A stretch of 64,000 nucleotides of DNA from Pilatotrama ljubarskyi (lineage: Eukaryota; Basidiomycota; Agaricomycetes; Polyporales; Polyporaceae). The stretch spans positions 788,012 to 852,011 of the forward strand of contig MU277672.1 of NCBI GenBank assembly GCA_022385805.1. The letters are read 5' to 3'. Under the pieces are notes generated by a model, which was not told the origin of the DNA, ran no database searches, and saw nothing but the letters and a program-made list of their open reading frames with translations. Position numbers and translations under genes: made by a program. This document shows positions 17,190 to 44,372 of the stretch, piece by piece; position 1 is the stretch's first letter; every line of letters starts with the position of its first letter.

Positions 17190-19494
<2,305 letters not shown>

Positions 19495-39015: not shown

Positions 39016-39023
39016 TTGTGGAC
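39016..39023. repeat. 8-bp target-site duplication, left
   Basis: TTGTGGAC directly before the element's first base. The same eight bases follow the element at 44365-44372. Confidence 0.85.
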
Positions 39024-42000
39024 CAAGGGGGCATCACACCGGCTTTCAGCGAACATATCCTTCAAAAGCGCTGGGTAGGACTCCGGACACCAGGGGAGGG
39101 GGGGTACTACATTAGCCGAGATAAGATTGCGAGAACGCTCGATCTCTGTGAATGGCATGTATCCTCATCTCGTCCGAACTGTCTTCCGGTTCCTCTCGAT
39201 GCCCACCGTCGTAGACTCAGCTCTGCTTCGCTTCTGCGCCGCTGCCTCCGAAGCGACAAGCTCCTGCTGTGCCTCCTCGATATCGTCACTGTCTGGTACT
39301 GCGTTCTCCTCTCTCCACTTGTCCGTCCATTCTGTTGCAATCCCCATTGCGAGCTCCTCGGTCTTTGAGATATGCATATCCACGATGAAACGAGGAGGGA
39401 GATCCGGCAGGCTGTTGTCGTCGCCACAGTGTTCCATCAGTAAGTGGACCATCGCGTTATACTTCCAGATTGTCCGCGGCTCTCCCAAAGGTGTCCGTGC
39501 AGGGCAGAAGGGACAGTGAATTGGGACGTTTGTCGAAGGTGTGGACACCGTCGTCTTGCAAGCGGAAGCATACGACATGCCTGTGTAGTGGTACGGGCAG
39601 CTTGATGATATCTTGTAGCTGCTTCCTCTCTTTGATAAGTGGGTAGTGCATTTACCCTCGCGTCCGCAAAATCCACAGGGCTCGACGTCGACCTATGATG
39701 ACCCGTTTGTTAGTCACACAAACCCGATTGCAATGAGCACTCCACAAACCTCTACAAGCAATTCCTTGTCATCCGGTATGTCCCTCATCGAAAATAGGAT
39801 GTGATGTCCGACATGATTTCGCATGCGTGAAACCGTAAGCTTTTCGCCGCATAGGAAGCACGGGACGAGCCTGTTCCCGCTCAACTTATCCACTGATAGG
39901 AGCTCCGGTATGTCCTTCACGATGAGCTGCGGACCTGGGGTATTGCAGTGAGCTTGTCTCAAGGGTGGATTTGACGACTCTGACTTACCCGTTTCGTCTT
40001 TGTAGGGCAATGCATCTGATCGTGCAGCGAAGGGAAGACGGTCGATATTGGCAACAATCTCGTCAAGTTGGGGATTCAGCGCGCTCCACGCGCTCTCCAG
40101 CGTTTGCTCCAACTGTGCCGCCGATAACGACCAGGTCATCCGAGATGTGGGAGCCGTCCCCTCGTGTCCTACAGCAGGCTGCTCGTCCTCTGCCGGAGGT
40201 GGCGGTGCGACGACTGATGGACCGAGGGGGAAGAGGAGGGCACCTGGCACAAGGAAGGTGTGCTTCGGACCTGTCGTTGCGGACCGCTTCTCACTCTCAA
40301 ACTGAGCATACTGATGATCCCAGAGCCATCGCGTGTCCGCAGTGTCGTCGGAGAGGTCTTGCACCTTGCGCATCCGCAAGACCTGCACTAGGGCCTTGAC
40401 CGGTGAGTCTTCACGCTCCATCTCGCTGAGTTCGACTGATGTCGTCCTTCTCAGCCTTTCACCATCGGTCTGGAACTCGAGGATTTCTACCACAGCGAGG
40501 CAGATCATGCCGCCAATGCGTATGAGTACTGCAGCTATGTCGCCGCACTTGATGAGGTCCTCCCCGTCAAGGTCTTGCATGTTCAAGCTGTCGTGAGTGC
40601 GACCGTGCAGGTCCTCGAGCGTCACTCCACGCACTCGAAGGATCCGCATTGTGGCCTTCCGAGATCGTTTCGCGGTAAGGAAAATGGTGACGACCGATGC
40701 TTTGAGGTAGGACTTCCCATCGATCTCCAGGAAGGCGTCCTCGCTAAAGATTTGCAAAGAGTCTAGCTGCGGAGCATTCCCCACCCGTTGCGAAAGACGG
40801 AGGAAGTCATCCAGTCCAACGCCTTCAGGTTCGTCGTCAAAGCCGCCCTCGGGATCTCCATCTGCACTGACATCATCTCCTACAGGCGCGGTGGTACCGC
40901 CGCCCTGAGAGGAGTGGCCCGCATGCGGGTCCGGCTCTTCGCCGTCGCCTAGATCCTTCAGCAAGCAAGCGGGCTCTGCGGCCTCCGTTCGTGCGTCATC
41001 AGGGTCGTAGTGGCATCCGACATAGACACCGAGGGGTCGCAAGAGGTCACGCCCTCCGTCGTCAGGGAAGGCCGCATCGAAGTCGACGCAGGCGGCACTA
41101 CCAAGGTACTTCTCCAATACCGTGTTCGCTTCCGCACGACCTCTCGCCCACTCTGCGGCTAGCTCAACGTCACCGACCTTGACGTTCCCTATCCATGAGC
41201 GTGGGTTCACGTGGTCAACCCCCATTGCGTCTTTCAGAGCGAGTCGCTGATGTCCACGGTCCAGTGCAGGGTCACGCTCGAAGATTCCCTGGATGAGCGC
41301 GCTAGTAGCGAGTTTCTCGGCAAGCTGCAGGGCATCAAAATTGCGATTGTGGTCCTGCGTACGACAGTCCCCGAAGAGGCCCTCCAGGCGATCAGTACCT
41401 TCCAGGATGATGTAGAACGGTAGGTCTGGATCGACAAGCTGCAGTCGAGCGACTGTGATAACAATATTCTTGATGATCGCTTGGGAGTCTGCGTAGAGCG
41501 CGCCCGTCATGAACTTCGTCCCATGCTTGATCCAAAGTGCAGCGATGAGGTGAGCGTATGTCGCAAGTAATCGGATCTGGTCTGACAAGCTCATCTGGAT
41601 CGAAATGAACGGAAGGAGGAAGTAGCCGAGAGTTTGCGCGAGGAAGGACAGAACGAGCCTGCGGTGAGCAGCCGAAGGAAGGTCCGGAGCAGGTGTGTCA
41701 TCTTCGAGTCTGATGAGACTCTGAAGGAGGTTCACGGCTTTCGGAACATTCTGCTTATCAGTGGGATCCAGGAGCTGTCGCGCCTTACTGGCCGTAATCC
41801 CAGGCAACGTCTGTAGATGTGCGAAGAGGTCGTGGCAGGTAAGGAGCGTGTCAGAGACCAGTATGCCCTTGGGGTTGCGAGCGAGCGTTGCGAACCCTGT
41901 TGCGAGTCAGACATTAGTGGACGCCGAGTGACTGAGGCATGCATGAAGTGCTCTACTGACGTTTGATGACATGCTTCGGATCGCATGTCCCACATAGTCC

Positions 42001-44364
42001 GCGGGGTCCCGTGTAACAATTCAAGCCTCGAAGACTACGGAGAAGGCGGCCCAAAGGTGCGTCTCTTTCAAGCAGCTCTGTCATGCACAGAACAAAGCGT
42101 GCTCGTCGGAACGAGGACTCCCCATCACTTGCGAGTGCCCAGACAGGGCCGTGCACGAGCTCACCACATGGGTGTGTGCGCCAGACGTCAAGAAATGTCC
42201 GGATCCAGTCTGCAAGTTCTTCCCCAGTCTCATGCTTGCATGAGGGCGAGAGGAGCACCGGGACAGGTGTGTAGTAGTCCGTCTTTGCATAGGGCGCGAT
42301 AGCAGCAACTGTCCCGTCCTTCCCATAGCAGCATGTTGTGGTCGGCGATGTCTCCGATCCATGAAGAGCTTGCTCGATCTCCTTGACCACATCGAGCCCG
42401 GTCACGCGTGTGCGGAGGTGCTGACTGTGCTCGCGGCACAACCCTAGGATGCTATTGCGATCTGTGTCGTAGCGGCAGCGTTCCTCGAGTGCGACACCAT
42501 CTATCATGAGGATCAGTCCAGCAGCAGTGGGTCTTCGACCTGGCTCGTCAGCGGCACCCTCCGGTACGGTGAGATCTTGTGACCGCAGCAACATTGCGGG
42601 CTTGAGCTGTGGGTTGCAAAGAGCAGTGATGTTTGCGGACATCTCAGACTCGGTTGGTTTACTAATGCAAGGGAGAAGATGTGGGATTGTCGTGTGACGA
42701 CTGACTGTCGTGGCAGAGGGAAGACCGTGCGAGTGTGCCAGTGCGTAGAGAAGTTGTGGGCCTCCCAAAGCCTTCGCGAGAAAGGCTACGTCCAGTTCAC
42801 GGCTGCTGAAGCCTCCCCGGGGTGTATAGAGCCCTTCAATCGACTGCTCAATCCGGGAGATGAGTGTACGGGGGCTCGCGCCCTTTCGGAGAGCAACCGT
42901 CAGGAGGCGGCGAAGACGGTGGACGTCGTGGCTAGCAAGAAGCATGACAAGGCGCTGGTTGTCTGTAATTCTCCGTCGCGCTACAGAGAGTTTACGCTCT
43001 GTGTTCCATTGCTATAATTGAAGACAACGTGGGTGAGTGCGATGCTAACAAGAGTTCATGATGCTCAAAATACCTTACCTTGAGCCGTAACTTCCGTAAC
43101 TCATGGACTGTCTTCCGAAGACTGGCGTGGAGCTGCTTGTATGTCAGAGCCATCCAAGGAGTATGATCCGCCGCAGAGATAGCCCTCTTCATGACCCGGT
43201 CAAATTGCAAGGATGTCGGTACCGCTGAGCAAGTAGGACAGACCCCCTCGCCCTCAAAGGCATAGCGAGTGCAATCCTCGGAGCGTATGCGCAGCCAGTG
43301 ATCATTCTCGATGGCGACAGGCTCCCATGGGAGATCGTTTTTGGCATGCCGATGATATGGGTAGGTACTCCATACAGACCCAGGCTTCCACTCGACAAGG
43401 GCACCCTTGCACTCGCGCATCGTGGAAGCAGACTGCATATCGGTGATGGCAGTGCAGAGTTCACCAACTTGGTGGTCCACCGGTTCCGAGTCCTCAGGCG
43501 ATGGCTCGTCAAGCAACCCGGACCCAACTGCTTCGTCAAGTACAGCAGACGGCATAGGAGGCGAATTGAAACTGGAATGTGGTGCTGATATAGTAGGCGT
43601 GACTGTGGGTGTGGCGGTACTCGATGATGGCCGGCTGCGATACATGCTGAGCGAAGTAGGTGGTACTCCTGGCTGAGGCCTATGCAAGGAGGTGCCACTC
43701 GGAGTGGGAGTCACGGAGGAGCCCATCGTATTGAGTATCGCGGAAACTCTCGCCTGCTCCTCCTGTAGTCTCCGCTGCTCTGCCAGTTTGCGACAATGAT
43801 TGGACCTCCGATGCGTGAAAAAGTAAGAAGAATTCCCATGCTTGGTGAGGTAGACGAGAAGACCGCAGAGGTCGCATACGATTGTGTGCCTTTGCGTTTC
43901 GTGGTCGTACACTGTGTGAAGCACGAGCTCATCGCCAACATGAACTGCGATAGGGGTTACAATGGAGCTGTTGGTCTCCATCGTATTCCAGAGAATGTAT
44001 AGTAGAGGCGAAAGGCGAGCTCGCACTGAGACTCGAGCGTACGGTGAGTCTGCCGAGCCTGCACTGATAAGATCGCCTGATCTGGTAGATCACCGGCGTC
44101 TCTGCACTTGCTCTGCCGCCCCGGTATTTACATGAGTCCTGCCCTCTCAGAATAATGTGAGAATGCCTCCGAGTGGTGTCAGGTCGAAGTAGTAGTATAA
44201 AATGGCATGCTAGCTCAATATGAAGCGTCACCGATGGCCCGGAGGCGAGATATGGGAGATTGAAGAGAAACGGCTTGGAAAAGTGAAAAATGGACCCCGA
44301 ACACCTGATTGGGGGTAGTACTACATAGGTTGATATCAGCGCTCCCTGGAGTGATGCCCCCCTG
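39024..44364 (-). mobile_element. Complete DNA transposon with terminal inverted repeats, superfamily not assigned
   Basis: The 5,341-bp unit is bracketed by TTGTGGAC repeats. The left end reads CAAGGGGGCATCACACC; the right end, read inward, is CAGGGGGGCATCACTCC, matching at 15 of 17 positions and 16 of 19 with the next two bases. Near each end lies a related subterminal motif, GGGGGGGTACTACAT at 39098-39112 and GGGGGTAGTACTACAT at 44311-44326. A single five-exon gene for a 1,524-aa transposase-like protein fills most of the unit and is uninterrupted. Eight-base duplications and termini starting CA(G/A)G recall hAT, P and KDZ elements, but the protein lacks the hallmark motifs I know for those. 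The near-identical ends, exact duplication and open frame suggest recent activity. Confidence 0.85.
39165..43981 (-). CDS. Large transposase-like protein, RNase H-like (DDE) core with zinc-binding modules
   Basis: Five exons (43981-43079, 43011-41961, 41896-39989, 39934-39750, 39692-39165) join in frame to 1,524 aa. An N-terminal zinc-finger-like module (residues about 36-63) has CDLCG followed by HRRSNHC. Candidate catalytic acids are D472 in LILMIDGVALEE, D597 in WALASDGESSFRRA and E822 in LEGTDRLEGLFGDCRTQDHNRNF, the last resembling the helix holding the final acid in RNase H-like transposases. CDPKHVIKRF lies between. The C-terminal third adds further Cys/His clusters (CFLCG...HVGHH, CGFCG, CPFCP...HLLMEHC). 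From memory, related unnamed proteins with GTDRLE..FG and D.KHV.KR motifs are abundant in Agaricomycetes. Start ATG at 43981; the earlier frame has no ATG. Confidence 0.75.
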
Positions 44365-44372
44365 TTGTGGAC
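44365..44372. repeat. 8-bp target-site duplication, right
   Basis: TTGTGGAC, identical to 39016-39023. Confidence 0.85.

Follow-up and report, generated by a model that had tools for sequence, protein, structure and literature searches.

The 64,000-nt stretch of Pilatotrama ljubarskyi DNA analyzed here (the window) contains a 5,341-bp transposon bounded by 17-bp inverted ends, with an 8-bp duplication directly abutting these ends on the outside. The 8-mer TTGTGGAC occurs four times in the window against 2.07 expected, which is not significant alone; its weight comes from its placement, and the insertion reading is settled by independent copies rather than by 8-mer frequency. The element and its boundaries are as follows.

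39016..39023, no strand: left target-site duplication TTGTGGAC (from the sequence)
39024..44364, no strand: transposon, 5,341 bp (a second copy has identical ends)
39024..39040, plus strand: left terminal inverted repeat CAAGGGGGCATCACACC (15/17 matches)
39078..39091, plus strand: left subterminal motif GGACTCCGGACACC, element bases 55-68, candidate transposase-binding site (same position in three elements)
44292..44305, plus strand: right subterminal motif GGACCCCGAACACC, oriented like the left motif (comparison of elements)
44348..44364, minus strand: right terminal inverted repeat CAGGGGGGCATCACTCC (15/17 matches)
44365..44372, no strand: right target-site duplication TTGTGGAC (from the sequence)

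A single gene on the minus strand, with five predicted exons and GT-AG introns, encodes 1,524 aa with no internal stop, in agreement with the initial annotation of a spliced gene filling the unit. The deposited model for this species, P0001 (1,387 aa), is spliced differently at three places and leaves out aa 90-190, 292-306 and 1329-1349 of our prediction. Exon limits derive from splice reconstruction.

43079..43981, minus strand: transposase exon 1, start codon at 43981
41961..43011, minus strand: transposase exon 2
39989..41896, minus strand: transposase exon 3
39750..39934, minus strand: transposase exon 4
39165..39692, minus strand: transposase exon 5, through the stop codon TGA (included)

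The protein has an N-terminal zinc-finger-like motif, a core resembling that of the P element transposase and ~660 aa of C-terminal extension beyond this core, and its conserved C-terminal Cys/His clusters (aa 1313-1437) probably bind zinc.

43796..43876, minus strand: N-terminal zinc-finger-like motif, aa 36-62 (CxxC...H...H), no THAP match (protein sequence)
41271..42933, minus strand: P-element-like HTH / RNase H / helical insertion core, ~aa 328-860, with intron 2 inside (limits transferred from homolog P0011)
42499..42501, minus strand: D472, predicted catalytic residue 1 (D230 of P; conservation and profile alignment)
42124..42126, minus strand: D597, predicted catalytic residue 2 (D303 of P; same basis)
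41980..41982, minus strand: D645 of the DxxH motif (D339 of P; same basis)
41382..41384, minus strand: E823, predicted catalytic residue 3 (E531 of P; same basis)
39990..40733, minus strand: beta-rich domain in the C-terminal part, aa 1040-1287 (weakly similar to PWWP / chromo-barrel / Tudor folds)
39429..39860, minus strand: C-terminal conserved Cys/His clusters, aa 1313-1437 (conservation and sequence)

Second copy, empty sites and relatives in the host genome

A check for other copies with the same termini was positive, as in the host assembly contig C120 terminates in the element's first 94 bp and contig C2 in its last 95 bp, both 100% identical to the window copy. The 8-mer GCAGCGCC flanks the element end on both contigs, and the two flanks jointly make up one ~402-bp repeat (405 bp here) that is split by the element and keeps its own 3-bp duplication (TAA/TAA) intact across C120 and C2. 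Given this jointly split repeat and its intact TAA duplication, the simplest reading of the contigs is that they represent opposite sides of a single insertion, a second copy known from its two ends only, with its interior unassembled. With the joined flanks as query, 16 other matches to the repeat spanning the site were listed. Fifteen of these are close copies, uninterrupted at the site and each carrying the 8-mer once (exactly in 14, with a single-base change in one), and the sixteenth (69% identical) is also insert-free, with small deletions and the 8-mer not intact. The site of the second copy is thus seen in both its empty and its occupied state, which demonstrates the 8-bp duplication. 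The empty-site check accordingly succeeded for the second copy, through paralogous empty sites with a single 8-mer, but not for the window copy, for which none was found in its own genome. The intact transposon with an 8-bp duplication and CA-starting ends that had been proposed is confirmed by sequence and by independent copies: the window element is a real, intact and recently mobile transposon of a wood-rotting mushroom.

Relatives are present in the same genome. An element of 5,504 bp at C33:499-6002 (duplication ACCTCGAC, ends CAGGGGGCAACYGCC) has 68% DNA identity to the window element over the best stretch, while C18:128792-129965 (1,174 bp, duplication TGTGCACC) derives from the C33 type by internal deletion and is 94% identical to both ends of C33. 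An 8-bp duplication is present in all 4 insertions having both ends found, the scan for C33 and C18 having demanded exactly 8 bp. Two more relatives (C22 and C8) are detectable at the protein level only and gave no convincing ends in the exactly-8-bp scan. Over 1,496 codons, skipping those opposite C33 stops, the window gene and C33 differ by 0.27 at nonsynonymous and 0.77 (saturated) at synonymous sites, which indicates long selection on the protein.

In three of these elements (window, C33 and C18), GGACTCCGGACACC occupies bases 55-68 exactly, counted from the left end, and a variant of it (GGACCCCGAACACC or GGACCCGGGACACC) begins 73-74 bases from the right end, in direct rather than inverted orientation relative to the left motif. 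The exact form of GGACYCCGGACACC has four occurrences in 33.1 Mb, all at left ends of the element group (window, C120, C33 and C18); only this form is telling, as with up to one mismatch the pattern is no commoner than its reversed control (61 versus 65). Since the transposase of P elements binds internal 10-bp sites that lie inside the inverted ends, as described in an excerpt of PMC7776569, GGACTCCGGACACC is a candidate binding site, and by analogy the mushroom transposase would bind this subterminal 14-bp motif.

The protein family and its P-type core

A protein database search that scored only the 7,992 candidates sharing most words returned 110 homologs of the transposase at E ≤ 0.001, and a second search with distant family members returned 44, 39 of them new. 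The organism-named hits all belong to agaricomycete genera, so that the 110 homologs uphold the earlier claim that unnamed relatives are common in this class. Homologs go by 'hypothetical' or 'uncharacterized' names; a few are called 'C2H2-type domain-containing', and one takes its name from a fused oxidoreductase domain. Many hits are metagenomic and nameless. The window protein has no significant Pfam match, and across 35 homologs a single transposase model is listed at E ≤ 0.1: PF21787 (TNP-like RNase H), matching one homolog at E 0.019. This large mushroom family escapes standard protein-family models, and the lack of a significant Pfam match marks it, at the sequence level, as a lineage very divergent from P. 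Such models leave a whole Agaricomycete transposon family as 'hypothetical proteins' that can be mistaken for host genes. No description of the family appeared among the listings of the full-text literature searched, and we claim no priority.

The signature string of the P superfamily, D ... D ... [C/D]xxH ... E in the RNase H domain (excerpt of PMC8230255), is present in full as D472, D597, D645xxH648 and E823, each conserved in no fewer than 98% of the sequences that cover it. Counted over the 110 first-search homologs and the window protein, with the 39 later homologs left out, equivalents are conserved in 105/106 (D472), 111/111 (D597), 108/109 (D645), 109/109 (H648), 109/111 (D820) and 110/111 (E823). 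Comparison by hhalign of three family alignments with 52 P proteins gave 96.6-96.7% at E near 4e-10 and paired D472 with D230, D597 with D303, D645 with D339, H648 with H342, D820 with D528 and E823 with E531, while one reversed and 20 block-shuffled family alignments reached at most 7.2%, with scores of at most 37.3 versus 98.75. The profile match extends over the core, at ~13-16% identity between family and P. Alignments A1, A2 and A3 took in 52, 82 and 35 of the 110 first-search homologs, A4 comprised 63 of the 149 homologs from both searches and the window segment, and A5 drew 52 sequences from the 120 P hits listed, out of 123 found.

The predicted structure, modeled for a homolog 62% identical to the window protein over 78% of the region searched, has a P-like HTH and an RNase H domain split by an all-helical insertion ahead of the E-bearing helix. 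This insertion lies in the same place as in P, with 178 residues from D645 to E823 versus 192 from D339 to E531. Two results count against a P assignment: an hmmsearch of the A1 profile against the PDB did not retrieve 6p5a at E ≤ 10, and N308, D444 and Q527, invariant in 52/52 P proteins, are not conserved at the corresponding family positions, which are mostly F, variable and mostly T, respectively.

The initial annotation had seen no hallmark motifs of P and suggested a possibly undescribed superfamily. Neither view is supported, as the P signature string occurs here and hardly varies, and predicted structure and profile comparison single out P; the proposed checks gave no significant Pfam match for the window protein and, for its homolog, a P-like structure prediction. 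On the basis of signature, fold, profile and duplication length, the element is very probably an autonomous cut-and-paste transposon from a fungal branch of the P superfamily that is deeply divergent. Beyond insects, an excerpt of PMC3985635 reports distant homologs of P in one amoebozoan and one chromalveolate; the present assignment would place a P-type system in mushrooms.

GTP contacts are a feature of the P enzyme outside the signature string, and we compared the P set K385, K400, V401, S409, F443, D444, N447 and D528, of which K385, F443 and N447 are not aligned confidently. In a region of uncertain alignment, equivalents of V401 (111/111) and D528 (109/111) are kept, whereas that of K400 is N (109/111), that of S409 is mostly Q (88/110) and that of D444, a GTP contact essential in P (excerpts of PMC7776569 and PMC8230255), is variable. 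Given that these contacts are kept only in part, it is doubtful that the mushroom transposase uses GTP as P does. A large, recently mobile fungal branch with the P fold and signature and incomplete GTP contacts offers a natural test of GTP's role in the reaction. THAP (PF05485) has no match in the window protein or the 35 homologs, several of them without an N-terminus, and an excerpt of PMC7776569 describes the THAP domain as confined to animals. With no THAP match, the element does not count as a canonical P element; its transposase is a remote relative of that of the fruit-fly P element.

Alternative placements and proposed mechanism

It is improbable that the element represents a separate DDE superfamily, sister to P, which shares the P core fold and signature and has its own architecture, termini and cofactor use. 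The ~13-16% identity to P, a best P-type Pfam match of only E 0.019 among the 36 proteins scanned, the missing THAP match, the lack of conservation of D444, N308 and Q527 of P and the ~660-aa extension past the core would all fit such a separation, yet the signature string is complete, the helical insertion has the same place and a similar length, the duplication length equals that of P, the profile match spans the core, and a superfamily boundary is partly convention.

Very little probability attaches to a hAT or KDZ (Kyakuja-Dileera-Zisupton) transposon, although such elements are common in these fungi and can have CA ends and 7-8-bp duplications. Duplications of 8 bp and CAGGGG-type ends are also usual in hAT. 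An excerpt of PMC12730594 reports 8-bp duplications for Zisupton and 7-bp duplications with CA..TG termini for Kyakuja, the latter without inverted repeats. However, the KDZ profile PF18758 (29 matches elsewhere in the genome) and the hAT dimerisation domain PF05699 (14 matches) have no match at the element, its four relatives or in the 36 proteins. The Plavaka (CMC) profile PF18759 behaves likewise, with 75 matches elsewhere. As all three profiles match elsewhere in this genome (exon-level counts, E ≤ 0.001), their silence at the element carries weight.

That chance repeats flank an ordinary host gene, with no transposon present, is scarcely credible: TTGTGGAC alone is not rare, but the second insertion, which has a duplication of its own and empty sites, and two related insertions besides refute this reading.

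For the element as a divergent P-superfamily transposon, the 1,524-aa transposase would bind the subterminal 14-bp motifs, probably via its zinc-finger regions, and pair both element ends. The RNase H centre (D472, D597 and E823), split by the all-helical insertion domain, would then excise the element, and its joining to staggered target DNA would generate the 8-bp duplication. Target choice may conceivably be guided by the C-terminal barrel and zinc clusters. A bolder proposal, speculative and unlikely, is that of a distinct mushroom DDE superfamily sister to P, with the P fold, a nucleotide cofactor that is lost or changed, a direct-oriented subterminal motif and a chromatin-reader-like C-terminal barrel steering insertion.

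Comparison with known systems

The Drosophila P element (PDB 6p5a/6pe2) shares with the mushroom element a DDE core with D, D, DxxH and E, a predicted insertion domain, all helical, that sits between the strand preceding DxxH and the final catalytic helix, target duplications of 8 bp, derivatives with internal deletions and subterminal sites inside the inverted ends, which are candidate sites here. In contrast to Drosophila P, the mushroom family has no THAP match, keeps GTP contacts in part (V401 and D528 equivalents, not D444), has 17-bp rather than 31-bp inverted ends, a direct-oriented subterminal motif ~55-74 bp from the ends and a long C-terminal extension, and measures 5.3 kb rather than 2.9 kb.

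THAP9 and zebrafish Pdre2 have the P catalytic signature, 8-bp duplications and 13-bp inverted ends (excerpts of PMC7776569 and PMC8230255). By description, the mushroom element resembles them in signature, duplication length and short inverted ends, whereas the animal THAP domain is theirs; THAP9 was compared only as one hit so named (P0267) within the P alignment. With the KDZ elements Zisupton and Kyakuja, the element shares 7-8-bp duplications in fungal DNA transposons and, with Kyakuja, CA..TG termini, but the KDZ profile matches elsewhere in the genome and not at the element, and Kyakuja is reported to be without inverted repeats. An RNase H core that contains an insertion domain is a likeness to hAT (Hermes) and Transib/RAG1.

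A dispersed repeat hosts the second copy

Besides the window element, a 5,341-bp P-like transposon, the host genome contains a non-autonomous, dispersed repeat of ~402 bp, found at C11:318675-318971 and in 14 other places (loci L037-L051). Two reference copies of this repeat share about 93-98% identity with the others, and a 3-bp duplication flanks 13 of the 14 copies for which both ends were found. Its termini are CACACCGGGG; the CAC ends, together with the 3-bp duplication, suggest a CACTA/CMC-type MITE. One such repeat is the host site of the element's second copy, and this insertion is most simply read as split between two contigs of the assembly, C120 and C2. Because each contig breaks off within the inserted second copy and carries part of the split repeat, C120 probably adjoins C2, which would let the two be ordered as neighbours.

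C33-type termini and other transposases

The related C33-type element has the terminus CAGGGGGCAACYGCC, which gave 10 matches in total versus 1 in the control. Six sites carry this terminus with one mismatch (C4:680463, C7:676590, C10:368458, C13:352832, C31:140848 and C38:240797) and may represent the ends of additional, perhaps non-autonomous, copies. Transposase fragments of two other kinds are also abundant across the whole host genome, with 75 exon-level matches for Plavaka and 29 for KDZ.

Host genes and a fused homolog

Domain matches place two stretches of host genes in the window:

516-1721, Spt6 domains (SH2_2, Spt6_S1)
17190-18593, poly(A)-binding-protein-like (RRM, MLLE)

The protein P0047, deposited for Antrodiella citrinella and 1,835 aa long, combines GMC oxidoreductase domains with a homolog of the element's transposase, probably an artefactual fusion produced by gene prediction spanning a transposon insertion.
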